Under the pieces are notes generated by a model that had not been told where the DNA came from, ran no database searches, and saw nothing but the letters and a program-made list of their open reading frames with translations. This document shows positions 21,977-56,867 of a stretch of DNA of 64,000 nucleotides, one piece after another (position 1 is the stretch's first letter; each line of letters begins with the position of its first letter). The translations under genes were made by a program, and so were the position numbers. The DNA comes from Phytophthora colocasiae. Taxonomy: Eukaryota; Oomycota; Peronosporomycetes; Peronosporales; Peronosporaceae. The stretch is from contig JAGKQI010000022.1 in the NCBI GenBank assembly GCA_018806915.1, positions 372,001 to 436,000 on the forward strand, in the 5' to 3' direction.

Positions 21977-22395
21977 TGCAGCGGGGCTGCGTAGGTGTGC
22001 ACGGCACAGAGGAAGTTTAGTTGACTCGTAGAGTCCTGCTTGCAAGGCACTAGCCTTCGGTTCTATACAAGAACCAAGTAGTCCACTAAATACGGGACTC
22101 ACAGAGTCGGTGTCCCTATAACAAAGGACTAACACTAACTATGTAAAATGCAAACTGATTTTTATTGACTTTATTGCCCTAATCCTAAATGTAACGGATT
22201 TAGTATCTAACATACTAAATCCTAATCAAAATGCAACGTGAGGCTCTGAGGCCATCTACGTATCTACTCGTGTGCCACACCATTATGTCCCCACATAAAT
22301 GTATCATGAGTGTCACACACTATTATGTACCCACATAAATGTATCCACGTGTGTCACACACCAACGAGAAACATTCGTGTAACATCCCCGTTACA
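21977..22395 (-). repeat. 3' LTR of Gypsy-B1 (419 bp)
   Basis: In element orientation TGTAACGGGG to CCGCTGCA. On the minus strand two AATAAA motifs lie at 22161-22166 and 22170-22175, a plausible polyadenylation signal in the half shared with B2. The other half, U3 in element orientation, is unrelated to that of B2. Confidence 0.92.
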
Positions 22396-22409
22396 CTCTC
22401 CCCCACCAA
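22396..22409 (-). promoter_or_regulatory. Polypurine tract of Gypsy-B1
   Basis: On the minus strand CTTGGTGGGGGAGAG abuts the 3' LTR terminus TGTAACGGGG. Confidence 0.8.
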
Positions 22410-23307
22410 GATTCCGGATACCGTATCCGGAAAGTGTAAACACACGACGCGATTATCGGCCGATGGCCACGGCACCTTGCCTTGCGCGGACGGCGCTGTC
22501 TCTCGTGCGTGTTACACGCCTCCGTACGCGATGCCGCTTGAGTACACACTTGGGCCCAATGCTTACCAAGCATAGGAGCCTACTGGCTCGAGTCAAGGGG
22601 CTCTACGGGCATGGAAAGAAGGCCACAGGTGGCGTATCTATGATACTACTGGATCAGTGATCCACAGGGCAAGCCTTCCAAGCTACCAACGGTTCCACGA
22701 ACCACACAGCAGTGGGGCCCACTCGCTTCACAGTTAATGAGACCCTCGGATGAGCACTGTGTGCAGGGCTTGATGCCCAATTTGTCCTTGAAGCAGGCGC
22801 AAGCGCCACTATGTGTCACAGACACTGTGTCTTGTGAATACACGTGCTCAGCACAGTCGTAGACACGACAACGAGCACCAGACAGCTAAGCTGTCGCTCA
22901 GGAGGAGCTAACCTACCTCCTACTGCTATGCAGCATGCGGGGTCCAATGCATTGGCATCCCTGGCATCCACAGTGCCTCATGACATAGTCATACCCATTG
23001 AACGCTTCTAGCGTCAGGTGATCGGATAGAATCCGTTTCCATCACCACTTGTCGCTTAGACCGAACGTCATTAAGACGGTTGTTCATCACGAACCATCTT
23101 CGCTTCATGATCGCGAAGCTCCGGGCCATAGGCCAGTGTTGTTAAAGGGTCATAGACCCTTGAAACACGCGCGCGAGGCGCATGTAGCTCTACTGCACTT
23201 GCAGTTTGAGCATTCGATGCCATGTCGACGGCACCGACGTGCTCGCTGCAAGTATTGCAGCTACGGGTCAGAGCCTGAGCTCAGCAACGACCCTGTGGAC
23301 CCCCACC
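22410..23307 (-). other. 3' untranslated region of Gypsy-B1
   Basis: About 900 bp between the chromodomain stop and polypurine tract. No convincing sense gene. Contains short hairpins, for example CCGGATACCGTATCCGG near 22414. It is unrelated to the longer region at this place in B2. Confidence 0.5.
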
Positions 23308-23708
23308 TTAGTGGGAGGTGCTTGGCACCCGGCGACTCCGTCGCACCCCCATCGGGCGGTCTGACACCGGGTGTGCCCGATCATACGCGTCAACGACGTC
23401 GGGGCAATCCTGCCGTAGTGGCACCTCAAACTCCCACGAGTTCTGTGAGTGAGGGTAACCTCGCCACTTCACCAGATACTGGTTGTGACCTCGGCGACGA
23501 CGCCGCGCCATCAGGCGATCCACGTGATAGTGAAGCTCACCTTGCTCATCGAGCAGAGCAGGAGGAGGACGAGCGGTCGATGGGTTCTCGCGCTGCGAGT
23601 GTAGACGCGCTGCATTGCTTGCAGACCCGCGTGGGCTCGGTGAAGGAGCACGACCACCACGTCGGTCATCCGACCCATCGCTTAGCGACTGGTCTCGAGG
23701 AGACCTAG
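23049..23708 (+). other. Antisense open frame opposite the Gypsy-B1 chromodomain and its linker
   Basis: Open frame in the same antisense register, relative to the chromodomain, as the ones in B2 and C. Over the chromodomain it reads ATSPDTGCDLGDDAAPSG, matching ATSPDTGFDYGGDAAPSG in B2. Its last 35 residues (about 23601-23705) keep a hydrophobic 3-4 spacing (L, L, V, V, D, V, T, L, L), weaker than in B2 or C, and then it stops. The frame is shorter than its counterparts and the upstream part does not look protein-like, so it may be a decayed copy or chance. Confidence 0.35.
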
Positions 23709-25593
23709 AGTCGCGGGGACCGGTCTGAGTCGCCTCTGGTGCTGCATCAGCGGGTCTATGACCTCCAGCATCACGTTGCTCCGAATCGACAAGACCTGTT
23801 GGTTCGGATGCAACCACCTGTGGCTCTGCCACCTGCTGCCGTGCAGCCTTCGTCCGACCCGGCGCCAGCGCCTCAGAACTCACAAGAGCAGGGTCCCGAT
23901 ATGGCTTAAGCAAGCCCACGTAGAACACAGGATGTGTTCGCATACGCTTTGGCAAGTCAAGCGTGTATGCCAGGCCCTTCTTGGCCACGACCGTGAACGG
24001 TCCAATGAAGCGCGGCCGCAACTTCGTCTTGAAGACGGCCGACACTGCGTGTGTAGGCAGGTTCTTAGCGTTTAATAAAACGTGGTCACCGACCTTGAAC
24101 TCCCACATGTTGCTTCTGCCTTTGGCATCAGCTTGTTCCTTTTGAACATCTTGGCTTTCAGCCATTGCGTCACGCACACGGCGTAAGACGCTAAGCCTCA
24201 TCGAGAGGAAGTCATCGACTTGCTTGCGAACGGCAAGGGGGCTGACATCAGCAAGCTCGGAGTCGAGCGACGGCACAGCCTCTCCCCCACCAAGCCCAAG
24301 GCTACCGCGTGGCGGAGTGAGCGGGACGCGCGGATGCGCAAGGCCGTTCACGTAGAACGGGGTGAAGCCTGTCGAGGCATGCACCGCGTTGTTCATTGAG
24401 AACTCAACGAGAGGGAGCATAGCGCTCCAAAGCTTCGGCGTTTCAGCGCATACGCTGCGGAGGATGTCCTCTAGGACGCGGTTCACGCGTTCAGTCTGAC
24501 CGTCGGTCTGCGGATGATCCGCCGTGGACATGTCCAGTCGAGTGCCAAGCACTTTGAAGACGGACGTCCAGAAGTGACCCGTGAAACGGGGGTCTCGATC
24601 CGAGACAATGGTCTCTGGCAGCCCATGCTGACGGAAGACCCGATCGATAAAGATCGTCGCTGTACCAGCGCCATCGACGGTGTCCGGCACAGCCGCTAGG
24701 TGAGCCATCTTGCTCAGACGGTCAACGAAGACCACAACGCCCGTGTTGCCTGCCGTATCCTTCGGCAGGCCAAACACGAAGTCCATACTCATGGACTGCC
24801 AACACCCAGAGGGTACAGGCAAGCTCGCCAAAGGCGCTGCCGCATGCGGCGAGGGTTTAACCCGCTGACACGTCTCGCACGTGTGCACATATGTGCTGAC
24901 CCACTTGTACATCTTCGGCCACCAGTACATGGAGCTCACCGAGCCGTAGGTCTTCTCGCGACCGAGGTGGCCGCTTGTGGGCGTGTCGTGGGCCTCATAG
25001 AGGATACGATACTTCAGGTCCTCATCGTGAGGAACCACCACACGTGGTGGGTCATCCTGACCCGTGCTGTAGTACAGCAGACCGCCTCCCAGGCTATAGC
25101 GTTGGAGTCTCGCCTTTAGGCGTCGTGACAGAGTCACCTTTGAGTCCTTAAACTCATCGCTCCCTAGAGCTTGAAGCAGCGCGACACAAGAGTCGTCCTG
25201 AGCGTACGCTGCTCGAACCATGTCCGTCACGGACGACGTCACCGAGGTGACATGAGATAACTCATAGTCCGGGCGACGTGATAACGCGTCAGCGAGGACG
25301 TTCTGCCTTCCAGGCTTGTACTTCACCTCGAAGTTATACTCCGCAAAGAAGGAGAGCCATCGGGCCATCCTCTGCGAGAGGTGAGGCGACTGCGTCGCTG
25401 TGCGTAGTGACGCATGATCCGTGTAGATCACAAACGGCTTGGAGCCGAGCAGGTGAACCCTGAATTTGACGAGAGCGTACTTCATCGCAAGTAGCTCCTT
25501 GTCATGAACTGGATAGTTCTTCTCAGCAGCCTTGAGCTGCCGAGACTCAAACGCAATGACGCGTTCGCGCCCGTCGGCGTCCGCTTGTAGCAA
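23308..25593 (-). pseudogene. pol: Gypsy-B1 pol 3' part: RNase H, integrase, chromodomain
   Basis: One continuous frame of about 760 residues. RNase H C-terminal half first (ESRQLKAAEKNYPVHDKELL, VIYTDHASLRTA, FFAEYNFEVKYKPGRQN, ADALSRRPDY). Integrase zinc region (TSGHLGREKT ... CETCQRVKP), then the core with D in SMDFVFGLP, D in SDRDPRF and E in TERVNRVLEDIL. Then the C-terminal region (FKVGDHVLLNAKNLP, KLRPRFIGPFTVV, HPVFYVGLLKPY), a low-complexity Ser/Arg/Pro linker of about 110 residues, and the chromodomain (YHVDRLMARRRRRGHNQYLV, KWRGYPHSQNSWEFE). The N-terminal part of RNase H is in another frame upstream, so this is the surviving piece of a broken pol. Confidence 0.9.
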
Positions 25594-25685
25594 AGCACTG
25601 CCGATGGCAAGTCCGAGGCGTCTACCAGACGACGATGAACGGACGATCGGGGTCTGGCAACGCCAGTATCGGTGCCTGAAGCAGG

Positions 25686-26645
25686 CTATCGCTTGATACG
25701 AGTGAACGCACTCTCGTGCTCAGCAGGCCATACCCATTCGGCATCCTTCTTAAGCGAGATCCGACAGTGGCCGAGCCAACTCAGCGTAGTTATCGCTGTA
25801 CTTGTGCAAGTAGTTGGCCAAGCTTCCAGCCACTTACGCAAGTCCTTCTGGTTCAAGGGAACCGGCCAGTCCACAATGGCCTTGACTTTTGCTGGATCAG
25901 CACGAAGCGCCATGCTTCCCAATGAAGCACCCTAGGAAAGGGATTTCTTCCGCGCCAAAGACGGCACTTGTCCGCGTTGGCGTACAACTTGTTGGTGCGC
26001 ATGCACTCGAGCACTGCTCTCACGTGTTCCACGTGTACCTCGACATCAGTCTTCCCGTGCTCCAGCACGACTGTGGACGAACACATCGTCAAAGTACGTC
26101 TGTGCGAATGCCCGTAGGGGCCTGGAACAACTGCGTCACTAGACGATTGAACGTTGCAGGCGCATTCTGACAGCCCTTGGGGCATGACGAGCCACTCCCA
26201 GAGCATACCGCTCGGGGTGCTCACCGCTGTAAGCGGAATATCACTGGCTCGCATGAGCAGCTGATAGTAGCCATCGACTAAGTCGAGCGCACTGTAAATG
26301 GTGCAACCCACCATGTTGTTCTGAAGAACATCCTTCCGTAGGAATCGGCGTCTGCGCCGGAATCGTGGCAGCGTTGAGCTTGTTAAAAGCGTGAACGATA
26401 CGCCACTTGCCATTCGGCTTTCTGACACAGAACGTTGGCGCGGAGTGCGGAGACTTGCTCTCGCGCACGAGACCCACCGCGTGCTTAGCACGGAAGAAGG
26501 CGTCAATGACGTCGCATTGCTCTTTAGGAAGAGGCCACTGCCGGGTCACGCAGTATTTAGTTCCGGGAACTAAGTCGATCTCGTGACGAACGCCCTCGGT
26601 CAGGAGGCAGGCCACTCGGTGGTTCCTTTGAGACAACGTCTCCAT
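25686..26645 (-). pseudogene. pol: Gypsy-B1 reverse transcriptase (frameshifted)
   Basis: RT spread over three frames. 26645-26241 has HEIDLVPGTKYCVTRQWPLP, SPHSAPTFCVRKPNGKWRIV and HAFNKLNAATIPAQTPIP. 26506-25853 has SALDLVDGYYQLLMRASDIP, LTAVSTPSGMLWEWLVMPQG and a damaged active-site region. 25922-25686 has the connection to RNase H (DPAKVKAIVDWPVPLNQKDL). The YFDD block intact in B2 is disrupted here. Breaks are mainly small indels. Confidence 0.85.
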
Positions 26646-28048
26646 ATTCCTTCAGCAAGGAGTAGAAGGGATCCGAGGGATTCTTGAGGATCTCCGATCC
26701 ACTCCTGGCGCTCAGCGCCTTCTTGACCTCGGCTAAGACGGACTCCGTCAACGAGGGACGATGAGTTTAACTCCTCTTCAGGTCGAACGATGACCACCTC
26801 GGCGAGTTCGCCAGCCTTCAAGGCATCGCCAAAGTCGGCGAACGACATCTCTTCTAGCTCAAGGAGCTTGTCAACACTCGGCAGTCCGTCCAGCAGGACG
26901 CTGCCTTCGGCACTGCCGTCCACTCCATCAACCAGAGTGTATAGCTGCCCACAGCCCTCCCGTGCGTTGACACTTGACGTCACGGACGACTCAGACGCAG
27001 AGCGTCTCGCCCATAGGGCTCTACGACGTCGTCGCCTCAGCCGACGAACGTCCACTCGACGGAGTACGTGCCGCTGCACAGGTAATGGCCTTGCCCGGCC
27101 CAGTGTCAGTGACACTCAGTGACTGACTCGGTCTACCGCCGACGTCACTAGACGGAGTACGTGCCGCCGCACAGGTTTCGGCCCCTTCAGGCCCAGTGTC
27201 AGTGACACTCTGCGATCCACTCGGTCGACGACCGATGCCGCTCAGCGGAGTATGTGCCGCTGCACAATCAATGACCGTAACAGGTCCAGTGTCAGAGACA
27301 CTCAGCGATCGACTTGGTCCACGACCAGTATCACTCGACGGAGTACGTGCCGCCCCACAGTTCACGGCCTGGTAAGGCGTCCGATGCCATCGGCATCCAG
27401 TGACGGTCCATGACCGGCGTCACTCGGCGGAGTACGTGCCGCCCCACAGGGTTACGTGAGCTTTGCCCACACGTTGACTCACTGTCAACCAGGCGCTACG
27501 CGCTCAACAGGACTGCGGTCTCGCACTCGGTGCTGTCCACCAACTCGGACACACCGACTTCCAGCATCATAGCCGACTCGGCTCGATGCTCGCGCCAATA
27601 GCGCTTCTGCTTCCTAGCAGAGGTGGGTTCATGACTCGCCAAAGCTCCACTAGGAGAGAAGTGCGTAGCACCTAAGGTCTTCGACTCTCCAATCAATCCA
27701 TGGCTCGTGGCGCTCCAGCCACGCCATGCCAAGGATGAGGTCGTACCTCGAATCCAGGTCCAGGACCAAGCAGCGTTCCACACTATCGAGAGTCCAAGAA
27801 TCTTCAGCCGCAGGTCCATGGGGACCTTGGCCACCGTGACACGGACGCCCGTCGCTAGACGGACCGTGACTGTGTCACCTCTTCGCGCTCGAAGCGCCTC
27901 AGCATATTGCTGACTACCTTCAACGGTGGAGCGTCTGACGTAGCGTTGCCAGACGCCCCCGAATCGATCAACACGATCCATGGCTTCTCAAAGCCCTTCA
28001 CGTCCACCTGACGACCAGCAAGCCCCTGCTTGCTCACACGTTCCGTGT
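26646..28048 (-). pseudogene. pol: Gypsy-B1 protease and repeat-rich protease-RT linker
   Basis: Protease active site WIVLIDSGASGN (DSG rather than the DTG of Gypsy-A), followed out of frame by RRGDTVTVRLATGVRVTVA and, damaged, the region that in B2 reads RYDLILGMAWLERHEPWIDW. The linker contains tandem repeats (27050-27420) and an acidic segment (LLELEEMSFADFGDALKAGE) just before RT. A short Cys-His search found no zinc motif. Several frame changes between 27496 and 28058. Confidence 0.75.
27050..27420 (-). repeat. Tandem repeat of about 96 bp in the Gypsy-B1 linker
   Basis: Three to four units encoding CAAARTPSSDTGRGPSRSLS, then VSDTGP plus a variable five to seven residues. B2 has about one unit fewer at 54480-54700. 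Units contain internal palindromes such as CAGTGTCAGTGACACT. Confidence 0.85.
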
Positions 28049-29104
28049 TCAAGAGCACGGAGCTCTTCGGGGCTGAGCCCAGTGCCTCTCACGCACTGCA
28101 GAACTCAGTTCTTCCCCAGCAGACCGCCCCGCGTCTACTGGGAGCCGGCGTTTCCTGGGCAGAGCCCAAGCGGGACCCGCGACAGGGTTGCGGCCATTCT
28201 GGCCGGCGCGCTCTTTGCGCAGAGGGCAGTTGGGCCTCAGGTGTGAGGGACTGCCGCATGTATAGCACCGGCGGGTGCTCATACGCTGCACCGCAGCTCG
28301 TAGCTCAGCTACCTCATCTTCAGCATAGCTGAGGTCCATGGGCTCAGGTCCACCGGACCCTGTGCTGCTAGCACCGACCCTCGACACCTTAAAGTTGTGT
28401 TCGGCATTCAATGCCACGCTGACAGCATCTTCGAAGCTGTGGGGGTTTTGACGGAATGTCTCCGTCCTGGCCACGCCAGCTCGTAAGCCTTCCATGAAGA
28501 CGGTCACGGCGACCACCTCAGGTAGAGGGTCGGCAGCCATGCCAGCAATGAGCGTGCGCAGCTCTTGGACATAGTCCACCAGATCCTTCTTGCCCTGGCG
28601 ACAAGCAAGGAAGCGTGACCGCACGCGATACGCCTGGTTAGGCGGAGCAAACACTTGCGTGAGCTTGGCCTTTAGCTCGCCCCATGTGGGGAAGGCCGCT
28701 TCCACCGACGTCCCAGACGTCAAGGCCCATTCTCGTGCTCGTCCTTCGAGCTTAGAGATGGCAAACGCAACGCGTTGCCCCTCCAACTGGAGCATGGCGG
28801 CCCCCATGGCCATTTCGACCTCTCGGGTCCAAAAAGGAGGTTCTCTCCCTCATTCCCGAGGAAGGTCTTCACGCTGAGCGTGACGGGCTTAGCTCTCGGA
28901 GCAGGGGTAACCCCTGTTACATTCCGCTGAATGTGCTCGACGAGAGCGTTTTCGTACGAGGCAAATGCCTCGAGGCGCGCGTTGACGGCCTCCGGCCCTT
29001 TGGGACGCAAGGTGCGCCGTACCTTCCGGGCCCAGCAAGGACGTAAGCTTGTTAAGCGTGTCCCGCTGACTCGGAGTCAAGTGAGCGTATGCTTCTGGCT
29101 CCAT
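28049..29104 (-). pseudogene. gag: Gypsy-B1 gag: capsid-like domain and one zinc knuckle (frameshifted)
   Basis: ATG at 29104 (MEPEAYAHLTPSQRDTLNKL), about 58 bp inside the 5' LTR. Frame changes near 29020 and 28830. The longest piece, 28813-28049, covers the retrotransposon gag domain (LEGRAREWALTSGTSVEAAF, WGELKAKLTQVFAPPNQAYR, YVQELRTLIAGM, VFMEGLRAGVARTETFRQNP) and a knuckle CYTCGSPSHLRPNC of form CX2CX4HX4C. B2 has the same gag with different breaks. Confidence 0.85.
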
Positions 29105-29143
29105 TCTCACAGAGAAACAGTCTTCAACTCAGGAGTTGGATTG

Positions 29144-29159
29144 ACTACTAGTGCTACCA
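29144..29159 (-). promoter_or_regulatory. Probable primer-binding site of Gypsy-B1
   Basis: On the minus strand, two bases after the 5' LTR end, TGGTAGCACTAGTAG begins with the TGG expected opposite a tRNA CCA end. B2 has TGGTAGCACTTGTAG at the same place. The tRNA is not identified. Confidence 0.55.
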
Positions 29160-29161
29160 GA

Positions 29162-29582
29162 TGCAGCGGGGCTGCGTAGGTGTGCACGGCACAGAGGAAG
29201 TTTAGTTGACTCGTAGAGTCCTGCTTGCAAGGCACTAGCCTTCGGTTCTATACAAGAACCAAGTAGTCCACTAAATACGGGACTCACAGAGTCGGTGTCC
29301 CTATAACAAAGGACTAACACTAACTATGTAAAATGCAAACTGATTTTTATTGACTTTATTGCCCTAATCCTAAATGTAACGGATTTAGTATCTAACATAC
29401 TAAATCCTAATCAAAATGCAACGTGAGGCTCTGAGGCCATCTACGTATCTACTCGTGTGTGCCACACCATTATGTACACACATAAATGTATCATGAGTGT
29501 CACACACTATTATGTACCCACATAAATGTATCCACGTGTGTCACACACCAACGAGAAACATTCGTGTAACATCCCCGTTACA
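29162..29582 (-). repeat. 5' LTR of Gypsy-B1 (421 bp)
   Basis: Partner of 21977-22395; differs by a GT insertion and about two substitutions. Ends on GATCA at 29583-29587, the right target duplication. Confidence 0.92.
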
Positions 29583-32012: not shown

Positions 32013-32429
32013 CGCTTAAACATGACTGCCTCCGTGGATCACACTTAAACTCAAGATCGTCAGCAATCCTAGTTGGTCTCCTCCTCATGACTGCCGAATC
32101 GACTGGATCCTCGGTGATCTTCACTCCTGGGGTGTCACGTGTACCTCTCCATCGAGGATCACAGTCTTTCGACCTCAAGAATATCTATCGACGGTGATAA
32201 TCAGCAGATCACACTTTGGCTTGGACTGAGTATACAGTATACACTCGAAGCGTGATCGAGAAATATCCACCCATATCTGCAGTGATCATGGGTTTACAGC
32301 ACTGGATCAAGCAAAATCTCACTGAACTAGCGTCGTCCAAAGCGATCGGAAGCAGCCATCGGTCCACCATACTAATCCCATGTATTTCTCGAGTAAGTAC
32401 GAAAAATCGAGATGTGCTTTACCACACTG
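32013..32429. other. Unassigned sequence between Gypsy-A2 and Gypsy-C
   Basis: GATC-rich, no recognisable gene. Contains the palindromic GTATACAGTATAC near 32232. It was contiguous with 10356-10710 before A2 inserted. The reading frame entering Gypsy-C is open back to 32216 but this part does not resemble gag. Confidence 0.45.
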
Positions 32430-33188
32430 CCCCCAGCGAGAAGGTTTCTCGCTGTAAGCTGCAAGATGACAAGCCAAACCTTGTCATCCTGAACGTGATG
32501 TCGAAGAGAGTGAACTCTCTTCGTGCCCTAGTGGACTCGGGCATGTCGAACAACTTTGTTCGACAGGGAAGTCTTCGAAGGTTTGACTTCGAAGAGGCCA
32601 ACACGCCTCGCAGCGTGTTGGAGGTGCGGTTGGCAACAGGTGCCACCGTGAGGACTGAGAAGCGCGTAGTCCGTGTGCGCTTCTCTTACAAACGAAGGAC
32701 GTTTGTAGAAGATCTTATTGGCTTGGATCTAGACGATAAGTTCGACTTGGTATTAGGCATGCCGTGGCTTGCACGGCATGACCCGGTGATCAACTGGGAG
32801 AAGCGTACCCTCGTACGCTTCAACAACGCATGCGCGACAGAGAGCGATGGCCCTGTCAGTGCTGCGCATGCACCAGGCGGTGCATGTGATTCCCCAGTTG
32901 AGGCAGCAGCGTCCGCCGCTGCCTCCGATCGCCGCCGGCGACCGCCAGCGACTCAGGGAGTCGTTGGGAGAAAATGTGTGTCGACTCAGAAATCTGAGCC
33001 GAAGGGTCGCGGTCACATGAGTGATGGTCAGGTGAATGTGAATCACCTGACGCGTAAACATCTGAATGATGTTTGTCACATGAGTGATGGTCAGGTGAAT
33101 CGCATTCACCTGAGAGAAGGTAAAATACCGGTATTACCGGTATCCTTGGAGGTACTTCAAGCCCCCAAGGGTCGCGCCGACGACGTCG

Positions 33189-33500
33189 CGTCAACTCTGG
33201 GAGTTGACGAAATAAATAAAATTCGGGGAACCGAAAGGCGTGCGTCAGCTCTGGGAGCTGACGCCACTGGCGCTTCGCTGCTAGTTCTGGGAACTAGCGA
33301 TCGGTCATCAGCTCCGGGAGCTGATGAGACGTGTAAAGGCGAACAGTCGCTGCTAGTTCCGGGAACTAGCGATCGTACATCCGCTCTGGGAACGGATGAT
33401 ATGTGTACAAGCGAACACTCGCTAGCGCAGGAAGCTAGCGAGAGCACGTCGACTCCGGGAGTCGACGATGCGGTTGCTTCATCCGCTCCGGGAGCGGATG
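33189..33500 (+). repeat. Array of nine hairpins in the Gypsy-C linker
   Basis: Palindromes centred on CTGGGAG or CCGGGAG, with stems that differ from unit to unit: GTCAACTC at 33190, CGTCAGCTC at 33243, GCTAGTTC at 33280, CATCAGCTCC at 33306, GCTAGTTCC at 33352, CATCCG (imperfect) at 33378, CTCGCTAGC at 33418, CGTCGACTCC at 33447, CATCCGCTCC at 33480, each followed after one to seven bases by its reverse complement. They encode short units such as SALGAD, LVPGTSD and SAPGAD, the tip falling on the LG or PG pair. Confidence 0.9.
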
Positions 33501-33748
33501 GAGGCGCAGCGGTTCAGGGAACCGACTGCGCGGCAGGAGGTGCTGGCGGTTGCAAACGCCCAGCACCCGAACAACCTGCGTGCTCACGTGCAGCAGCGCT
33601 GCACGCGATGAGCGGCACTCAAGCCGGGCTTGATAGTGCGAGTCAGCGGAAGGAATCCGCTGACGATTGCGATAACGTCCCGTCCAAGGTGCGATGCCTT
33701 GGACGTGGAGCACCTGGAGCCGGGCTCCATGGTAGACCTTCGCGGCGC

Positions 33749-34012
33749 AAGCTCAGGGAGCTGCGCGAGTCTCAGTCCGGGACTGTGGGGGGTGTGTCTG
33801 CGGTGCAGACACCGAGTGTCAAGGCGTTGGACGTCTTGACACGAACTGATACTGCGGTACAGTATCAGAGCGCGCGGCACCAGCTCAGTGAGCTGTGTGA
33901 GTCTCAGTCCGTGACTGAGACGGGTGTGTCTGCAGTGCAGACACCGAGTGTCGAGACGTTGAACGTCTTGACACGTACTGGTACTGGGTTACAGTACCAG
34001 AGGATGCGGTTG
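33749..34012 (+). repeat. Two 132-bp direct repeats in the Gypsy-C linker
   Basis: Units start near 33751 and 33883 (GCTCAG). Encoded protein: LRELRESQSGTVGGVSAVQT then PSVKALDVLTRT, and LSELCESQSVTETGVSAVQT then PSVETLNVLTRT. Each unit carries hairpins, including GTCTGCGGTGCAGAC. Confidence 0.85.
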
Positions 34013-34954
34013 GAGAATCCGCCGACGAGTGCGTCGGCGTTGACCGCACTTCCAACGATGAGTTGGAAGCGCTTCGCGCGAGACTTGTACGATGGACGCA
34101 TCGAACAAATTTGCATTCTCTCGGATATCGAGAGAGTGGATCGCGAAGCCGAAGAGCTGAAGCAGCTCGTCGTCGATGGGATCACTGAGGGTGATGACTC
34201 CCTCAGTGCGAAGACTAAGAAGCAGCGCTTCGAAGAGCAGAGTTGGGACTCGTTGAGGTCGAGTCCCTACTACGAAGTTCTGCGGGAGTACAAGGATGTA
34301 CTCCCGGACGAGATTCCTTCGGAGCTTCCGAAGGATAAGGGCGTACAGCACGAGATTGATCTCGTGCCGGGCACGAAGTACTGTGTTACACGGCAGTGGC
34401 CACTGCCGCGTGAACAAGTGCAAGCGATCGACTTCTTTGAAAGTCGTCGTCTTGCAGGTCAAGTGCGGGAGTCAAAGTCCCCGCACAGTGCTCCAACGTT
34501 CTGTGTGAAGAAACCACAGGGCGGCTGGCGCATCGTTCATGCGTATAACAAGTTGAACGATGCGACGATACCGGCGCAAACGCCGATACCGCGAAAAGAT
34601 GTTATCATCGATTCGATGGCCTTGAGCACTATCTTCAGTGCTCTAGATCTGCGTGATGGATTCTATCAAATCCTCATGCGTGAGAGGGACATCCCTCTCA
34701 CAGCGGTAAGCACTCCAAGCGGTATGCTTTGGGAGTGGCTCGTCATGCCACAGGGGCTTAAGAACGCCCCTGCGACGTTCAATAGATGCGTGACACATCT
34801 ATTGCGCTCGGTGCGCGACTTCGCACCGAGTTACTTCGACGACGTGTTCGTCCACAGCCGGGCTGTGAACGGGAAGACGGACATTGAGATGCACAAGGTG
34901 CATCTCCGGAAGCTGCTAGAGCTTATGAGGAAACATAAGCTCTATGCGACCTGA

Positions 34955-35697
34955 AGAAGTGTATCTTCGGGGCGAGCGAGATACCCGTGCTGGGGTCTCG
35001 TGGGGAAAGACGGCGTGCGCCCTGACCCAGAGAAGGTCAGAGTGATCAATGAATGGCCCACGCCATCCAATGTGAAGGAACTGAGGCAGTTCCTTGGGCT
35101 TGCCACGTACTTGTGCAAGTACGTGGACAACTATGCGGGCAGCTTCTTAAGAAAGAGGCTGAGTGGATTTGGACGACCGAGTGCGAGGAGGCATTCGGTG
35201 CAGTCAAGCAGGGCTTGACTGAAGCGCCGATCTTGGCCGTGGCGGACCAAGATCGTCCATTCCACGTAGTGTGCGATGCATCCGACTTTGCAATCGGATG
35301 TGCATTGATGCAACACGATCACGAAGGGCGTGATCGTGTAGTCTATTATCAATCGCGTCAGCTGAAGCCAGCTGAGCGTAACTATCCCGTACATGACAAG
35401 GAGCTCCTTGCCATGAAGTATGCACTCGCAAAGTTCCGAGTGTATCTACTTGGGAGTAGACCGTTCGTGGTCTATACAGACCACGCATCATTGCGTACGG
35501 CGATTAAGTCGCCGCACATCTCGCAACGTATGGCGAGATGGTTGTCCTTCTTCGCGGAGTACAACTTCCGGGTGGAGTACAAACCCGGAAGACTCAATGT
35601 AGTGGCCGACGCGTTATCGCGTCGACCTGACTATGCGGAGACGGTCGACGCCAACGCTGTTGGCGTCGTGAGGACGGTGTGCCGTCGTCAACGTTGA
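34955..35697 (+). pseudogene. pol: Gypsy-C RT tail and RNase H (frameshifted)
   Basis: RT connection in 35000-35218 (GVRPDPEKVRVINEWPTPSN, KELRQFLGLATYLCKYVDNY), then after a break near 35150 the RNase H in 35053-35697 (FHVVCDASDFAIGCALMQHD, YYQSRQLKPAERNYPVHDKE, FVVYTDHASLRTAIKSPHIS, FFAEYNFRVEYKPGRLNVVA, ADALSRRPDY). The frame runs into a stop near 35695 just before the integrase frame. Confidence 0.88.
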
Positions 35698-36614
35698 TTG
35701 ACGACGTGAAGAACGCGTATGCAAGAGATGCAGACGCGAAGGGGCTGCTGGAGTTCCTCGCAGCACCTTCCGACGTGGCACGTCGGAAGCTAACCCCTCA
35801 TCTTCGAGCTCGTGTACACCGCTATCGTGTACACGAAGGCCTACTGTTGTACAGTGCAGTAGACGACAATGCGGATCGCATTGTCGTTCCAAATGACCAT
35901 GACCTCCGGTTGAGGATCATGTTCGAGTATCACGATGCCCCCACGGCAGGGCATCCGGGTCGTGAGAAGACGTACACTCTTCTCACGCGTGACTTCTACT
36001 GGCACCACCAGTACAAGTGGGTGCGCAAGTACGTACGTGCTTGCGAGGTTTGTCAACGCGTGAAGCCTGCGCAGTTCTCGCAGGCTCCTCTTCAATCACT
36101 ACCGACTCCGTCGGAGTGTTGGCAGTCCATGTCCATGGACTTTGTCTTCGGTCTTCCGCCTGACAGCAAGCGGAGGACGGGCATCGTTGTCTTTGTGGAC
36201 CGATTCAGCAAGATGATTCATCTTGCTGCCGTCCCGGCTACTGTTACAGCCGCGCAGACTGCGCGACTGTTTGTTGACATGGTGTTCAAACACCATGGCA
36301 TGCCGCTCGACATTGTGTCGGACCGTGATCCACGCTTCACAGCGCGGTTCTGGCAAGAAGTGTTTACACTTCTTGGTTCACAATTGTCAATGTCGACTGC
36401 GGATCATCCGCAGACGGACGGACAGACCGAACGTGTCAACCGCGTACTGGGTGACACGCTGAAGAGCTACGCTCACTCGTTCCCGCATTGGAGCGAGTGC
36501 TTGCCGATGGCAGAGTTTGCCATCAACAACTCGGTGCATGCCTCGACAGGGCATACACCGTTCTACGTGAACGCCATGAGGCATCCACGATTGCCGAGCA
36601 TGCTCGGCGGGTAG
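35679..36614 (+). pseudogene. pol: Gypsy-C integrase
   Basis: Open frame of 311 residues. Zinc region: H in YHDAPTAGHPGREKT, then CEVCQRVKP. Core: D in SMSMDFVFGLPPDSKRRTG, D in VSDRDPRFTARFW, E in TDGQTERVNRVLGDTL. Then MAEFAINNSVHASTGHTPFY and VNAMRHPRLP. Stops at 36614; the C-terminal part is in an overlapping frame. Dense hairpins with stems up to 10-11 bp (for example 36206-36228 and 36354-36375). Confidence 0.9.
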
Positions 36615-37654
36615 CTTCCTCCTTAAGTGGGGGAGGATCTACGGTTGCGTCCGAACAACCGCAGAATGCAACTGATAGCAGCACACTATCAGCTGCGGTG
36701 ACGCGTGCGACGTCTCGTTCGAGCAGGAACGAGCGCGCGATGTCTGTGCCGGGCACAGACATGAGAGATGATAGCGAGCAGGCAGGGCCTGCTGCTGACA
36801 AGGGCGACAAGCTGAAAGGATTCAGCTCGGGTGCGCTAGACTTTATCCAGCGAAGACAAGCCGTCATACGGTTTGTCCAGGATGCTATCGCAGCTTCTGT
36901 CGATCGACAGAAGCTGAACGCTGATACTGTTGGTAGAGGCAACACAAATGAATTCGAAAAGGGTTCATTAGTTTTGTTAGCTACACAAAACCTACCTAGA
37001 CATGCAGTGTCTGACTTTGGAGCAAGCAAGCTTGCTCCAAGATTCATTGGGCCGTTCAAAGTACTTGAACGGCACGGCAACGCGTACCGGCTGGACATAC
37101 CGTCTAGCATGAGGCTCCACCCGACCTTCTACGTCGGGCGGTTGAAGCCGTACGTGCAGCACGGACTACCTAAGGCTGGTAGTCCGACTGAGGAGTGCGA
37201 GAGGCCTGGAAGGCCTTCTCGAGACCGTCGACACGGTCGATCACTCTCGTCCCAAGACCGGACGAGAGGTTCGAGGCAGTCTGAGCTGCCTCGCAGACCT
37301 CAGCACGGAGGACACGAACCTCCTGCTTCAGAGCAGCTATCTCAGCGCTCTGTGTCTGCTCCAGCGCAGCAACTCGATCGTGCAGGGCACGATCGTCATG
37401 GTCATAGCGTTGACCATGCGGAGGGAGTGTTCCCACCCCCTCCGCCGCCGTTGCGCGACGCGCGTGGAGCGATCCGCTGGATTGTGGAGCGGATTGTGGC
37501 TCATAAGAGAACGAACTCTCAAGGGGTTCGTTTTCGTATTCGTTGGAGAGGATTTCCTCCCCATCGAGATACATGGGAGCCGCGAAACGTCCTGATGGAG
37601 GACGTTCCGGAAATGGTGAGGGCGTACGAAGCCCACCATAACTTGCAGGGTTAA
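36488..37654 (+). pseudogene. pol: Gypsy-C integrase C-terminus, linker and chromodomain
   Basis: Meaningful from about 36620: SRNERAMSVPGTDMRDDSEQ, QDAIAASVDRQKLNADTVGR, then the integrase C-terminal fold (SLVLLATQNLPRHAVSD, KLAPRFIGPFKVLERHGNAY, HPTFYVGRLKPYVQHG). A basic Ser/Arg/Pro/Gln/His linker of about 90 residues follows (about 37165-37430), then the chromodomain (IRWIVERIVAHKRTNSQGVR, FRIRWRGFPPHRDTWEP). The low-complexity linker is the sense strand of the antisense coiled coil at 37170-37709. Confidence 0.85.
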
Positions 37655-37709
37655 ACCCTGCACGAGGAGTGCTGCGGTCAGCCACAGCACTCGGAGCTTC
37701 GCGTGGCAC
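37170..37709 (-). CDS. Antisense coiled-coil frame opposite the Gypsy-C chromodomain and linker
   Basis: Frame open on the minus strand from a stop near 37770; the 179 residues from 37709 begin at GTG, and the first ATG is near 37574 (MYLDGEEILSNEYEN). So the N-terminus is unresolved or truncated. Residues about 110-165 read as a strong coiled coil: in IAALKQEVRVLRAEV the I, L, V, L, V fall exactly at spacings 3-4-3-4, with further heptads on both sides (DDRALHDRVAALEQTQ, VIDRVDGLEKAF). The sense strand over the same bases is low-complexity, which suggests the antisense product is the constrained one. B2 has a frame in the same antisense register, also leading to a coiled coil. Function unknown. 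Confidence 0.5.
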   Translation of the reverse strand: MPREAPSAVADRSTPRAGFNPASYGGLRTPSPFPERPPSGRFAAPMYLDGEEILSNEYENEPLESSFSYEPQSAPQSSGSLHARRATAAEGVGTLPPHGQRYDHDDRALHDRVAALEQTQSAEIAALKQEVRVLRAEVCEAAQTASNLSSGLGTRVIDRVDGLEKAFQASRTPQSDYQP

Positions 37710-37884
37710 AATACGACCACGGAGTTCCTTGATGTGATCGGGTACACGGACAACCGTGTACCCCAGGAGATCACTTTAAGATAAGCGTGTTGCCAAGGGT
37801 TGGCAACACGGGCAGAGTGTGCCAAAGCGAACGGCACATGCGATCCCCGCTTCCATGGACAGATCATGGAGGCGTTCACACTTA
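37655..37884 (+). other. Gypsy-C 3' non-coding remnant
   Basis: After the pol stop. No LTR recognised. Hairpins continue: GAGTGCTG with CAGCACTC near 37668, GTACACGG with CCGTGTAC near 37742, GTGTTGCC with GGCAACAC near 37787. Ends abruptly at Copia sequence. Confidence 0.6.
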
Positions 37885-38019
37885 CTGAAGAAGGTCGTGG
37901 TAGAGGTTGTCTTGCGAGGGGAGGACTGCCGAAGCTTGGGGCGAGGAGGCCGAGGCGAGGGAAGTCACTTGAGGGGTAGAATGGAAATTCAGAAGTGATT
38001 GATTGATATGAGCTTACAC
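37885..38019 (-). mobile_element. Truncated Copia unit 0 (5' leader only)
   Basis: Matches the leader between LTR and gag ATG of the other units and breaks off at 37885, just before the place where the gag ATG would lie. This is the junction with Gypsy-C. Confidence 0.85.
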
Positions 38020-38167
38020 TGTTTTCTCTACCTGGTCTGCATCCAATCATTTGGTGCATCCAATCACCAACATTCTGTACTCGTCCAATCATCCTACTCG
38101 TCTAATCATCGGTGGCGTAAACATCTTACCGTAATCATTGCGGGATCGTATTGGATCACCTGCAACA
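38020..38167 (-). repeat. Copia LTR L0 (148 bp)
   Basis: TGTTTTCTCT to CACCTGCAACA on the plus strand, so both strands read TGTT...AACA. On the minus strand it is preceded by a purine-rich GAGAGGGGC that can act as polypurine tract. No clear primer-binding site was found beside it. Confidence 0.82.
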
Positions 38168-38174
38168 GCCCCTC

Positions 38175-42479: not shown

Positions 42480-42486
42480 GCCCCTC

Positions 42487-46776: not shown

Positions 46777-46783
46777 GCCCCTC

Positions 46784-48998: not shown

Positions 48999-49410
48999 TG
49001 CAGCGGGGCTGCGTAGGTGTGCACGGCACAGAGGAAGTTGGGTTGACTCGTAGAGTCCTGCTTGCAAGGCACTAGCCTTCGGTTCTATACAAGAACCAAG
49101 TAGTCCACTAAATACGGGACTCTCACAATCAGTGTCCCTATAATAAAGGAACTAACACTAATTATGTAAAATGCAAACTGATTTTTATTTATTTTATTGC
49201 CCTAATCCTGAATGTAACGGATTTAGTATCTAACATACTAAATCCTAATCAAATGTAATGTGTGACTCTGAGCTAACAGCCAGCAACTGGCTACATGTGT
49301 GACGTGTGAGAAACACTATGTGTTGTACACGGATCTGTGACTTGTGACCTGGATGGTGAATACCACACCTATTGTAGCCAAGGCGCGCAGCGCCGTGTAA
49401 CCCCGTTACA
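48999..49410 (-). repeat. 3' LTR of Gypsy-B2 (412 bp)
   Basis: Differs from the 5' LTR at GAAG/GACG, GTGAC/GTGGC and TGAAT/TGTAT. R/U5-like half resembles B1, U3-like half does not. The adjacent polypurine tract on the minus strand is TTTGGTGGGGAGGG (49411-49424). Confidence 0.93.
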
Positions 49411-49424
49411 CCCTCCCCACCAAA
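49411..49424 (-). promoter_or_regulatory. Polypurine tract of Gypsy-B2
   Basis: TTTGGTGGGGAGGG on the minus strand, directly before TGTAACGGGG of the 3' LTR. Confidence 0.8.
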
Positions 49425-49585
49425 CCGTGGATACGGAGTATCTACAACTGTAGACATAACTGCCTTGTCAAGGCCTGTCACCGGCAACTTTCCGATAAAA
49501 GAAATCTCTCAACGAGAGTGCGCGGAGTGCGCTGGCTCAACGAGCACATTCTTCAATTCTCCCCAGCGAGCCAACCGCTCCTGAG

Positions 49586-51483
49586 GTGTCCAGTGACCAG
49601 GCGTCTACGCCCCAGCGCCTCAGCGCTTTCCGGTCTGGAGCCCTCGGCTCCTCTCACGCTCTCCGATTCGGAGTATTTCGCGGCGTCTCGCCTTCGCTAC
49701 GGAGCGATGTTCAAGGCCAGCCCGACGTCAGAAGTGGTAGCGGTGGCTCACCCTTCGAGTACACGACAGCGTCGCCGACGCGCGACCCACGTCGCTCTCC
49801 TACAGAGGAAGGCGAGGTCGAAGTGGACTACGAGGAGTCCGAACAGGGCGATGCCCATGCGTCTCCTGCTCCTGCGAGCCCTCGGACGACCCGATCTGAG
49901 CTGCGCTCTCCACGCGATCCGCGTCGGTACTCAATTCCTCGGCAGCTGCGGCAGCCCAATCCGTTCCCGGAGGGACCTTCGAGCCTCGTGCTCAACGCGT
50001 TGCGCAACGCACCACCGCTTCCTGCTCGCGATGAGCCAGAGTCACTCAAGGGAGTCGAAGACGCGATCACCAACCCTCTGGATGAGGCACAGGAGGCTTC
50101 CCTGAGCGGTGCTCCAGAGTCACGTCGACCGGTCCAACGGGACATCGTGGGGACTTCGTCGCGGCGCGACTACGGCTTCGAGCCTCGCGACCCTGCCGAG
50201 CAGGTGAAGCAGTTGATGGCGCAGCCAAACCTGCATGGTTACGCCATAGGCAATCCTCCACGTACGGTGGCTGAGACTCAGCAGCGACAGGGGCTCCATG
50301 AGCGTTTCCTGACCCCGCAGGTGTGCACACTCGCCGAGTATCGGCAACGCTTAGATAAGCAACGGCGACGGGAGTCTGTGCCTCAGATGAGGACTTATCC
50401 ACTCCTGCTCCAAACCGGAGAGACCACCCGGGACTACATGGTCCATGTGGCCACCTGGGCCGAGGCTTCACGGAAGCTCGCGTCGTTTGACCGGCTCATG
50501 GAGAGCTGCGCCGAGGTGGACGTCCGCCTCGCCCGAGGTCTACTCTTCCAGTACGCGAAGATACGCGTGCGGCCCGGCCGCTTTCCTCGTCACACGACGG
50601 CAGTGGCTCCCGCCTCTCAGGCCACTATCCCTGCTTCGCAGGATGCTCCTTCAGTCTCCGAGGGAGACTCGCTGGCTATGCCAGCCACGGACCAGAGCCT
50701 GAGCTCGGCTGCTGGTCCGTCAGCTTCTCACACTAGTGGTGAGAAGCGGGTGTCGACCGAGTGGTCGACCTCGAGCCCTTCAGGCGCCCCGATCTTCGCG
50801 ATCAAAAGCGTCCACGACGTCAGGGCAGTCCTGCCTCAGGGACCCTTCAAACTCCCACGAGTTTTGGGAATGAGGATATCCACGCCACTTCACCAGATAC
50901 TGGTTTTGACTACGGTGGCGACGCCGCGCCATCAGGCGCTCCACGTGGTAGTGGGGAGTCCCCTGCTCATCGAGCAACGGCGGAGGAGGCCGATTCGCTG
51001 CGGAACGCCGTACTCGATGAGTGTGACGAGCGCCATTTGTCGCATCGCGCCTGGTACCAACTCGATCACTCGATCGGTACTCTCCGGAGTCAGACTCAGT
51101 CCCTTCAAGGGAACGTCGAGAGTGTTTGGCATTCGCATGCCCGTCTCGCTCATGACATGGAGGAGATTGAAAGCCGGATGGCTTGGCTCGAAGGTCCTCA
51201 GTCCCTGACTGCTCGCCTGCACCAGCAGGAGCTTCAGCTCGCTGAGTTGCGAGGTCAGGTGACGTTGCTGCTGCAGATGACGCAGCCTGGGCACGTGTCG
51301 TCGGTGCCAGCGCCTCCGCGCTCACCCCGCGGGGTCCCGATATGGCTTAAGCAAGCCGACGTAGAACACCGGGTGTGTTCGCATCCGCTTTGGCAAGTCA
51401 AGCGTGTATGCCAGGCCCTTCTTGGCCACGACCGTAAATGGTCCGATGAAACGCGGACGCAATTTCGTCTTAAAGACATTTGA
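49586..51483 (+). pseudogene. Antisense gene of Gypsy-B2: polar N-terminal region and C-terminal coiled coil overlapping the chromodomain
   Basis: Unrecognised. Opposite strand to pol, between the 3' LTR and integrase. First frame is open 49586-51208 (starts at GTG) and looks protein-like from about 49720 to 50760: acidic/Ser-Pro segment (SPTEEGEVEVDYEESEQGDA), then QVKQLMAQPNLHGYAIGNPP, CTLAEYRQRLDKQRRRES, YPLLLQTGETTRDYMVHVAT and AEVDVRLARGLLFQYAKI. A break near 50740-50860 moves to the frame 50761-51483, whose residues 108-143 (about 51082-51189) form a coiled coil with hydrophobic residues at strict 3-4 spacing (SLQGNVESVWHSHARLAHDM, EEIESRMAWLE). That part lies opposite the pol chromodomain and its low-complexity linker. 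About 1.0 kb is non-overlapping. Function unknown; B1 lacks the non-overlapping part. Confidence 0.6.
50780..51325 (-). pseudogene. pol: Gypsy-B2 integrase-chromodomain linker and chromodomain
   Basis: Frame of 181 residues continuing pol after a shift near 51325. Linker of about 110 residues is low-complexity (SAEALAPTTRAQAASSAAAT, then Arg/Ser-rich) and unlike that of B1. Chromodomain: LLDEQGTPHYHVERLMARRR, NQYLVKWRGYPHSQNSWEF, DCPDVVDAFDR. Stop directly after DREDRGA. Confidence 0.85.
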
Positions 51484-52619
51484 CACTGCATGTGTAGGTA
51501 GGTTCTTAGCGTTTAATAAAACCTGGTCACCGACCTTAAATTCCCATACATTGCTTCTACCTTTTGTATCCGCTTGTTCCTTCTGAACGTCTTGGCTTTC
51601 AGCCATCGCGTCACGTACACGGCGTAATACGCTCAATCTCACCGAGAGGAAGTCATCGACTTGTTTACGCACAGCAGAAGGGCTGATATCGGCAAGCTCG
51701 GAGTCGAGCGACGGCACAGCCTCTCCCCCACCAAGCCCAAGGCTACCGCGTGGCGGAGTGAGCGGAACGCGCGGGTGCGCAAGGCCGTTCACGTAGAACG
51801 GGGTGAAGCCTGTCGAGGCATGCACCGCATTGTTCATGGAGAACTCAACGAGAGGGAGCATAGCGCTCCAACGCTTCGGCGTTTCAGCGCATACGCTGCG
51901 GAGGATGTCCTCCAGAACACGGTTCACGCGTTCGGTCTGACCGTCGGTCTGCGGATGGTCCGCCGTGGACATGTCCAGTCGAGTGCCCAGCACCTTGAAG
52001 ACGGACGTCCAGAAGTGACCCGTGAAACGGGGATCTCGATCCGAGACAATGGTCTCAGGCAGCCCATGCTGGCGGAAGACCCGATCGATGAAGATCGTCG
52101 CTGTACCAGCACCATCGACGGTGTCCGGCACAGCCGCTAGATGAGCCATCTTGCTCAGACGGTCAACAAAGACCACCACGCCCGTGTTGCCTGCCGAGTC
52201 CTTCGGCAGGCCAAACACAAAGTCCATACTTATGGACTGCCAACACCCAGAGGGTACAGGTAAGCTCGCCAAGGCGCAGCCGCATGCGGCGAGGGTTTAA
52301 CCCGCTGACACGTCTCGCACGTGCGCACATATGTGCTGACCCACTTGTACATCTTCGGCCACCAGTACATGGAGCTCACCGAGCCGTACGTCTTCTCGCG
52401 ACCGAGGTGGCCGCCTGTGGGTGTGTCGTGAGCCTCATAGAGGATACGGTACTTCAGATCCTCATCGTGAGGAACTACCACTCGTGGTGGGTCATCCTGA
52501 CCCGTGCTGTAGTACAGCAGACCGCCTTCCAGGCTGTAGCGTTGGAGTCTCGCCTTTAGGCGTCGTGACAGAGTCACCTTTAAACTCATCGCTCCCCAGA
52601 GCTTGGAGCAACGCGACAC
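51322..52619 (-). pseudogene. pol: Gypsy-B2 integrase
   Basis: 52619-52230 has the zinc region (HDTPTGGHLGREKTYGSVSS, CETCQRVKPSPHAAAP). After a break near 52275 the core is in 52272-51322: SMDFVFGLPKDSAGNTGVVV, VSDRDPRFTGHFWTSVFKVL, TDGQTERVNRVLEDIL, MNNAVHASTGFTPFYVNGLA, FKVGDQVLLNAKNLPTHAVS, KLRPRFIGPFTVVAKKGLAY. D, D and E are in the expected places. Confidence 0.9.
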
Positions 52620-53430
52620 AAGAGTCGTCCTGAGCGTACGCTGCTCGAACCATGTCCGTCACGGACGACGTCACCGAGGTGACATGAGATAACTCATAGT
52701 CCGGGCGACGTGATAACGCGTCAGCGAGGACGTTCTGCCTGCCAGGCTTGTACTTCACCTCGAAGTTATACTCCGCAAAGAAGGAGAGCCATCGGGCCAT
52801 CCTCTGCGAGAGGTGAGGCGACTGCGTCGCTGTGCGTAGTGACGCATGATCCGTGTAGATCACAAACGGCTTGGAGCCGAGCAGGTGAACCCTGAATTTG
52901 ACGAGAGCGTACTTCATCGCAAGTAGCTCCTTGTCATGAACTGGATAGTTCTTCTCAGCAGCCTTGAGCTGTCGCGACTCAAACGCAATGACGCGTTCGC
53001 GCCCTTCGGCGTCCGCTTGTAGCAAAGCACTGCCGATGGCAAAGTCAGAGGCGTCACAGACGACAATAAACGGACGAGCGGGGTCTGGCAGCGCCAGTAT
53101 CGGTGCCTGAAGCAGGCTATCCTTGATACAAGTGAACGCATTCTCGTGCTCGGCACGCCATACCCACTCGGCATCCTTCTTAAGGAGATCCGTCAGTGGC
53201 CGAGCCAACTCAGCGTAGTTCTCGCTGTACTTGTGCAAGTAGTTGGCCAAACCCAGCCACTTACGCAAGTCCTTCTGGTTCAAGGGAACCGGCCAATCCA
53301 CAATGGCCTTGACCTTTGCTGGATCAGCACGAAGGCCATGCTTCCCAATGAAGCACCCTAGGAAGGGATTTCTTCCGCGCCAAAGACGCACTTGTCTGCG
53401 TTGGCGTACAGCTTGTTCGTGCGCATGCAC
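52492..53430 (-). pseudogene. pol: Gypsy-B2 RT tail and RNase H
   Basis: Frame of 312 residues: RT connection (GLRADPAKVKAIVDWPVPLN, WLGLANYLHKYSENYAELAR), RNase H (FIVVCDASDFAIGSALLQAD, ESRQLKAAEKNYPVHDKELL, FVIYTDHASLRTATQSPHLS, ADALSRRPDYELSHVTSVTS). The end is out of frame with the integrase piece; an 8-base-scale deletion near 52583 (TTTGAGTCCTTAAAC shortened to TTTAAAC) differs from B1. Confidence 0.88.
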
Positions 53431-56397: not shown

Positions 56398-56439
56398 TCT
56401 CACAGAAGAAACAGTCTTCAACTCAGGAGTTGGATTGAC

Positions 56440-56453
56440 TACAAGTGCTACCA
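56440..56453 (-). promoter_or_regulatory. Probable primer-binding site of Gypsy-B2
   Basis: Minus strand TGGTAGCACTTGTA starting two bases inside the 5' LTR; agrees with B1 except at one position. Confidence 0.55.
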
Positions 56454-56455
56454 GA

Positions 56456-56867
56456 TGCAGCGGGGCTGCGTAGGTGTGCACGGCACAGAGGACGTTGGGT
56501 TGACTCGTAGAGTCCTGCTTGCAAGGCACTAGCCTTCGGTTCTATACAAGAACCAAGTAGTCCACTAAATACGGGACTCTCACAATCAGTGTCCCTATAA
56601 TAAAGGAACTAACACTAATTATGTAAAATGCAAACTGATTTTTATTTATTTTATTGCCCTAATCCTGAATGTAACGGATTTAGTATCTAACATACTAAAT
56701 CCTAATCAAATGTAATGTGTGGCTCTGAGCTAACAGCCAGCAACTGGCTACATGTGTGACGTGTGAGAAACACTATGTGTTGTACACGGATCTGTGACTT
56801 GTGACCTGGATGGTGTATACCACACCTATTGTAGCCAAGGCGCGCAGCGCCGTGTAACCCCGTTACA
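56456..56867 (-). repeat. 5' LTR of Gypsy-B2 (412 bp)
   Basis: Partner of 48999-49410. Right target duplication CGTCC at 56868-56872. Confidence 0.93.

Follow-up and report, generated by a model that had tools for sequence, protein, structure and literature searches.

Why should the DNA of a retrotransposon, its coding regions included, be filled from end to end with short perfect hairpins? The question is posed by one stretch of 64,000 nt from the oomycete Phytophthora colocasiae (contig JAGKQI010000022.1, positions 372,001 to 436,000; this whole stretch is called the window here), taken from a genome of 92.5 Mb in 105 contigs. The element concerned, Gypsy-C, is present in the window as a fragment without long terminal repeats (LTRs) on the plus strand at 32427..37885, as delimited by blastn with the complete copy at locus L063 (96-97% identity). 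A sequence-only reading of the window had claimed that Gypsy-C is saturated with hairpins in coding and non-coding DNA alike, and had offered two possible causes: selection for a folded genomic RNA, or strand switching by the element's own reverse transcriptase (RT).

Hairpin saturation and predicted folding

Hairpins were counted as perfect, non-overlapping inverted repeats with arms of at least 7 bp and loops of at most 16 bases; each sequence was compared with 60 dinucleotide shuffles, and each open reading frame (ORF) with 200 synonymous-codon shuffles that preserve the protein. By this measure positions 32436..37880 (5445 bp) carry 107 hairpins, with arms of 7-13 bp and loops of 0-16 bases, which amounts to 19.7 per kb or roughly one per 50 bases; the dinucleotide shuffles average 5.5 and never exceed 11. 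Sixty of the hairpins have arms of at least 9 bp, against a shuffled mean of 0.42 and a maximum of 2. The complete copy at L063 has 161, of which 93 reach an arm of 9 bp (shuffles 7.3 and 0.42), LTR hairpins being counted double in such whole-element totals; 9 bp is the commonest arm length and arms longer than 11 bp are rare (4/161). The codon shuffles, a comparison that the sequence-only reading had itself proposed, leave Gypsy-C far above their range in all four ORFs: 56 hairpins against a mean of 3.8 and a maximum of 9 in ORF 32438-34951, 13 against 0.8 and 4 in ORF 35053-35694, 16 against 1.3 and 5 in ORF 35679-36611, and 19 against 1.8 and 5 in ORF 36488-37651. The saturation is therefore real. 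All seven hairpins quoted in that reading are present, two of them in slightly better form than given (32545-32564 extends to 32544-32565, with an arm of 10 and a loop of 2, and 36206-36228 has an arm of 11 and a loop of 1), and its count by eye of 16 hairpins with arms of at least 7 between 34020 and 34960 was an understatement, the scan giving 20 (two of which overlap each other).

The density is even along the element, at 19.5 per kb in both the LTR and gag, 19.1 in pol, 17.1 in the 3' part and 19.7 in the 3' non-coding DNA, and all 30 of the loci L001-L030 lie between 16.5 and 21.3 per kb. Copia and Gypsy-A are unlike Gypsy-C, as had been asserted, and have no excess over their shuffles: Copia 38300-42300 contains 1 hairpin (shuffle mean 4.3) and Gypsy-A 104-4633 contains 2 (4.4), with 10 (6.8) in a further control at 12298-20000. 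Inverted repeats reach 19.3 per kb in a full-length Gypsy-C copy; mirror repeats stand at 0.72 (Gypsy-A 0.88, Gypsy-B2 1.29), and direct repeats are slightly raised at 2.6 (Gypsy-A 0.88, Copia 1.5).

Several simple sources can be set aside. Chance and base composition are ruled out by both kinds of shuffle and by mirror repeats that are no denser than in Gypsy-A or Gypsy-B2. Insertion of a mobile hairpin is rejected, since some 2.3 kb of Gypsy-C can be aligned to the related loci L068 and L067 with 64-65% identity. Tandem repetition is not the source either: Tandem Repeats Finder reports only 33275-33423 and 33741-34002 within the element, and hairpin density is the same elsewhere. These two arrays have units of 72 bp and 132 bp respectively, with hairpins inside the units. 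Nor are the hairpins regularly spaced, the standard deviation of the gaps between them (26.7) falling within the random range of 25.2-34.0. Among the 160 gaps in L063, 11 are of exactly 1 base (two of these repeated through the second LTR) and none is of 0 or 2 bases, random placement giving an expectation of about 5 for each length.

Folding energies predicted in windows, the other check that had been suggested, were compared with dinucleotide shuffles (350-nt windows, 5 shuffles per window). The mean excess in Gypsy-C is 36.3%, with a range of 20.3-49.5% and all 23 windows positive; it is 0.3% in Gypsy-A, -3.1% in Copia, 7.1% in L068, 6.2% in L067 and 12.2% in Gypsy-B2. Of 157 hairpins, 144 are predicted to form in the minimum-energy folds of the plus strand and 145 in those of the minus strand. 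The outermost pair is G-C in 110 of 152 hairpins (LTR hairpins being counted once in this test) and the innermost in 100 of 152, against 542 of 1023 middle pairs (p 7e-6 and p 0.003), and shuffled sequence has no such end effect. GC content falls as arms lengthen (Spearman -0.20, p 0.012), and immediately beyond the arm pairing drops close to the chance level (0.36, 0.32 and 0.26 at positions two to four). These GC clamps, AT-richer long arms and sharp ends fit a stability threshold better than they fit copying from arm to arm. In the pol ORF the codon registers that place more pairs on third positions are the commoner ones (23 and 22 versus 11), which is consistent with synonymous change, though not decisive. 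There is also an orientation bias beyond GC-clamping, the 5' outermost base in L063 being C in 67 and G in 43 of the 152 hairpins (p 0.028).

In these respects Gypsy-C resembles the genome-scale ordered RNA structure (GORS) described in the passages of PMC7642675 drawn on here: in both, a folding-energy excess extends over the whole sequence, coding regions included, with many consecutive stem-loops, and in both few pairings are kept among relatives, which suggests that folding itself, and not any particular structure, is what matters. In those passages the excess is 7.5-10.7% in hepatitis C virus and about 15% in SARS-CoV-2; the highest genome mean stated for vertebrate RNA viruses is 23.4%, and single regions exceed 50%. 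The mean of 36% in Gypsy-C is above any genome mean in them, their figures having been obtained with 350-nt windows as here, but overlapping and with another shuffling program. GORS belongs to positive-strand RNA viruses, whereas Gypsy-C is an LTR retrotransposon integrated in a cellular genome, and its folds, as predicted, are made of discrete perfect hairpins without a G-U preference. The sequence-only reading knew of no description of such hairpin saturation, and a search of titles and abstracts, mostly without subscription journals, likewise found none.

Related elements and variation among copies

Gypsy-B, on which the sequence-only reading was silent, is represented by two related elements on the minus strand, Gypsy-B1 at 21977..29550 and Gypsy-B2 at 48999..56755 (ends approximate, those of Gypsy-B2 being taken from repeats). 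Both are mildly enriched, with 24 hairpins (shuffle mean 6.7; 3 with arms of at least 9) and 22 hairpins (7.8; 8) respectively. When elements are grouped by a 200-residue stretch of RT, Gypsy-C (19-20 per kb) falls with L068 (7.7), L067 (6.2) and L066 (4.0 over the whole locus, 7.1 in its first 2.1 kb). Next come Gypsy-B1 (3.2) and Gypsy-B2 (2.8), the 30 Gypsy-B loci L031-L060 having 2.4-3.1 per kb, and there is no excess in L064 (1.5), L065 (0.5) or nine more distant loci including Gypsy-A (0-1.3). Since Gypsy-B and the other relatives are mildly enriched, hairpin density is a graded trait of the clade. Families have hardly any hairpin centres in common: 1 between Gypsy-C and L068 (0.67 expected by shifting), 2 between Gypsy-C and L067 (0.65), none between Gypsy-C and L066, Gypsy-B1 or Gypsy-B2, and 2 between L068 and L067 (0.27); density is thus inherited and the places mostly are not. 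Conserved functional stem-loops are excluded for the same reason. No DNA of relatives from other species was found in viral_contigs or genome_contigs.

The comparison of L068 with L066 covers 963 bases at 91% identity and 781 at 75%. With the hairpins of one locus as reference, arms differ at 0.077 of sites and gaps at 0.143; with those of the other, the fractions are 0.068 and 0.140. In addition, 2 and 3 pairs (which may partly coincide) have changed on both sides. Between Gypsy-C and L067 there is little or no slowing (arms 0.291, gaps 0.307).

Gypsy-C has at least 40 near-identical copies, all 40 of the places scored, out of 851 first-look candidates, matching a 941-bp piece at 97-100%; we infer that the true number runs into the hundreds. 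For polymorphism we used 30 copies: L003-L030 without L004 and L027, together with the window copy, L061, L062 and L063. Of the 33 aligned rows, L002, L004 and L027 were dropped, being loci already represented by L061, L063 and L062. L001-L030 are the best 30 of the 40 scored places, and so those nearest to the window copy rather than a random sample. Singletons were compared, over 3.9 kb, with variants shared by at least 2 of the 30 copies (variants that may also stem from recombination between copies), a site being taken as within an arm if any copy has an arm of at least 8 bp there.

Shared variants are depleted in arms. For all variants there are 219 singletons and 56 shared in arms, against 296 and 134 elsewhere (odds ratio 0.56, p 0.0017); for synonymous pol variants 45 and 9 against 87 and 52 (odds ratio 0.33, p 0.006); and for non-synonymous variants 92 and 6 against 120 and 18 (p 0.12). 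Shifting the arm mask gives p 0.006, 0.001 and 0.048 for the three classes. Restricting the arms to those present in at least 2 copies gives p 0.056 for all variants and 0.028 for synonymous ones, and to those in at least 10 copies, p 0.0007 and 0.008. Arms-to-elsewhere counts of synonymous variants go from 45:87 in one copy through 8:30 in 2-3 copies to 1:22 in at least 4, the step from one to at least 4 copies being significant (p 0.003). Singletons themselves are barely depleted (180 at 1438 arm sites, 335 at 2418 others), and many of them probably predate insertion: L063 has 16 in 3.9 kb, against one LTR-LTR difference in 462 bp. There are 11 cells (of 6 kinds) with double changes that preserve pairing, compared with 3.0 expected under independence, and 374 one-sided cells.

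Proposed selection for folding and its alternatives

The answer that we favour, with a probability of about 0.55, is that the element's single-stranded nucleic acid has been under long-term selection to fold as such, the benefit, shielding, being a guess. Selection, which we infer to be the cause in preference to a biased mutation process, would be weak and diffuse and would favour self-folding anywhere along the element, each lineage assembling a separate set of GC-clamped hairpins, 7-11 bp long, mostly by way of codon positions that are free to vary. Of the first cause offered by the sequence-only reading, one half has support: synonymous depletion in arms, GC clamps and the 36% energy excess all argue for a folded nucleic acid. 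The other half, RNA as the selected molecule, fares less well, as will be seen from the mismatches below. As to the benefit, our guess is that folding would keep the element's RNA, and perhaps its cDNA, from pairing with antisense strands of its many copies, a pairing that would feed Dicer and Argonaute. Each hairpin stem is itself far shorter than a Dicer substrate. Self-folded strands would be expected to pair badly with antisense RNA and to leave few sites exposed; of the 21-mers in the predicted folds, those with 16 or more unpaired bases account for 0.25% in Gypsy-C, 0.7% in the first 4.5 kb of Gypsy-B2, 1.1% in Gypsy-A and 1.5% in Copia. In P. infestans, according to the portions of PMC3522703 used here, small RNAs map mostly to transposable elements and chiefly to LTR retrotransposons, for which a Dicer-dependent 21-nt class is about twice as abundant as the 25/26-nt class, and two Gypsy-type elements have small RNAs in both orientations.

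A number of observations weigh against selection for folding. Near-hairpins with one mismatch in L063 comprise 28 G-U, 50 A-C and 72 others, so that these standing near-hairpins lack the preference for G-U found in ordinary RNA stems, which would be expected if plus-strand RNA were under selection; G-U and A-C counts in the relatives are 4 and 8 (L068), 9 and 7 (L067), 3 and 3 (L066), 11 and 12 (Gypsy-B1) and 5 and 13 (Gypsy-B2). Outside the pol ORF the depletion in arms is not significant (mask-shift p 0.13). The synonymous depletion does not deepen significantly from 2-3 to at least 4 copies (p 0.13), and that of all variants does not deepen at all over this step (arms to elsewhere 219:296 in one copy, 31:73 in 2-3 and 25:61 in at least 4; ratios for the shared classes 0.64 and 0.62, p 1.0). 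Variants that lengthen a hairpin are not favoured (12 shared and 23 singletons versus 27 and 29, p 0.28). Finally, little or no slowing of arms is seen between L068 and L067 (arms 0.249, gaps 0.268) or between Gypsy-B1 and Gypsy-B2 (0.055 and 0.065).

Some of these points are what a purely mutational account would predict. If paired bases of the RNA or cDNA were copied or kept more faithfully, sequences could drift into pairing without any benefit, and by our own reckoning the enrichment could arise if rates differed two- to three-fold at each pair, compounded over 9 pairs. Such a process predicts fewer transmitted variants in arms, GC-rich ends (A-T ends fray), random spacing and no favour for lengthening, and it expects the equal depletion of all variants at 2-3 and at least 4 copies that is in fact seen. 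We nevertheless consider it unlikely: singletons, though many are probably old, are barely depleted in arms, the synonymous depletion deepens from singletons to at least 4 copies, and nothing in it explains the restriction to one clade. The surplus of A-C mismatches, which are G-U on the minus strand, raises a different issue, namely whether the target of selection has been single-stranded DNA, or both strands (with minus-strand cDNA and antisense transcripts), instead of plus-strand RNA alone. Only Watson-Crick pairs allow both strands to fold, and over 26 windows of 160 nt the energy excess averages 46% for the minus strand, compared with 39% for the plus strand. That surplus may, however, partly reflect base composition and mutation spectrum; singletons number G>A 117 and T>C 56 versus C>T 94 and A>G 44, and among variants in arms it is the G-U class that is best transmitted (shared to singletons 19:47, with A-C 16:63 and other 17:76; no formal test), which points to the plus strand, and we rate this version as distinctly unlikely. 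A bolder proposal, doubtful but worth stating, is that the clade has evolved a base-pairing defence, in which a Watson-Crick hairpin every 50 bases or so would fold sense and antisense strands alike and so block long double-stranded RNA, the stems being too short for Dicer. To our knowledge it would, if true, be the strongest genome-wide folding of any mobile element or virus.

The second cause put forward by the sequence-only reading, hairpin-templated strand switching by the RT, is disfavoured. Quasi-palindrome correction by template switching turns imperfect inverted repeats into perfect ones, and here it would account for perfect pairing, equal use of the strands and presence in coding and non-coding DNA. 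It should, however, leave multi-base mirrored changes, and none is found among the hairpins that only a few copies have (45 rows at 26 places): 33 rows are one base away from the commonest state, 8 are two away, 4 match it and none is further off, and in 7 of the 8 with two changes only one of these lies within an arm (both do in the remaining row). The clusters of four mismatches, seen in single copies at four hairpins, break the hairpins instead. Residues encoded within Gypsy-C arms are no less conserved than the rest, protein identity to L068 being 126/181 for codons that lie wholly within arms and 298/468 for those outside (p 0.17); for the arms of L067 and L068 the result is mixed, identity being lower in some comparisons (7/16 versus 163/234, p 0.049; 9/22 versus 131/213, p 0.07) and not in others. 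As strand switching also fails to predict sharp arm ends, GC clamps and AT-richer long arms, we regard it as quite improbable. Dispersed packaging or Gag-binding hairpins would suit their occurrence throughout the element, LTR included, and yet the loops vary from 0 to 16 bases, no common loop motif was noticed in the hairpin list (no formal test) and positions are not conserved between families; this is a very improbable explanation indeed.

Selection for folding would make Gypsy-C a natural extreme of apparent selection for folding per se, and suggests that base pairing can govern which synonymous codons a retrotransposon uses. Since a single genome contains many young copies as well as graded relatives, selection for genome-wide RNA structure, and the reason for it, become testable by population genetics and small-RNA sequencing. 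In a study of an RNA replicase, strands reportedly have to fold, no matter where, in order to stay apart; in that cycle both strands are RNA and there is no DNA stage, unlike in Gypsy-C.

The element and other features of the window

Gypsy-C is a chromodomain Ty3/gypsy LTR retrotransposon, as both its domain order and its paired LTRs attest. The complete element at L063 measures 8325 bp (989-9313), with LTRs of 462 bp that are 99.8% identical. All domains of the window copy lie on the plus strand: an aspartyl protease (RVP_2, PF08284, E 8e-7) at 32516..32812, which is residues 101-199 of ORF 32216-34954; the RT (RVT_1, PF00078, E 1e-21) at 34505..34942; a Ty3/gypsy-type RNase H (RT_RNaseH, PF17917, E 3e-36) at 35245..35562; the integrase zinc-binding domain (PF17921, E 4e-21) at 35895-36068 and catalytic core (PF00665, E 7e-11) at 36123-36410; and, at the end of pol, a Tf2-1-like SH3 domain (PF24626, E 5e-16) at 36965-37156 ahead of the chromodomain (PF00385, E 5e-12) at 37478..37633. 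The oomycete Ty3/gypsy element Chronos, as described in the parts of PMC5348765 consulted, has the same order of protease, RT, RNase H and integrase and also a chromodomain. It differs in having a second, archaeal-type RNase H, neither PF13456 nor any other second RNase H being found in the four ORFs of Gypsy-C; the word "hairpin" is absent from the main text of that paper.

The proteins nearest to the Gypsy-C integrase, among the best 120 of 2337 matches, mostly carry Phytophthora names. Other Phytophthora genomes encode integrases that match that of Gypsy-C at 83-89% identity along almost the full query. One record named Aeromonas veronii, on a contig of 1189 bases, is 89% identical over 82% of the query, and is probably oomycete contamination.

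Elsewhere in the window, the Gypsy-A ORF (104-4633) has no chromodomain detectable with Pfam and carries a second RNase H (PF13456) between the RT-RNase H and the integrase, as is stated for Chronos in the same parts of PMC5348765. Tandem Copia-like units about 4.3 kb apart occupy 37900-49000 and 57000-64000, with repeats up to 100% identical. A large inverted repeat at 8976-9384/9863-10295, with 225-bp arms that are 99% complementary, lies beside 23-bp tandem repeats.

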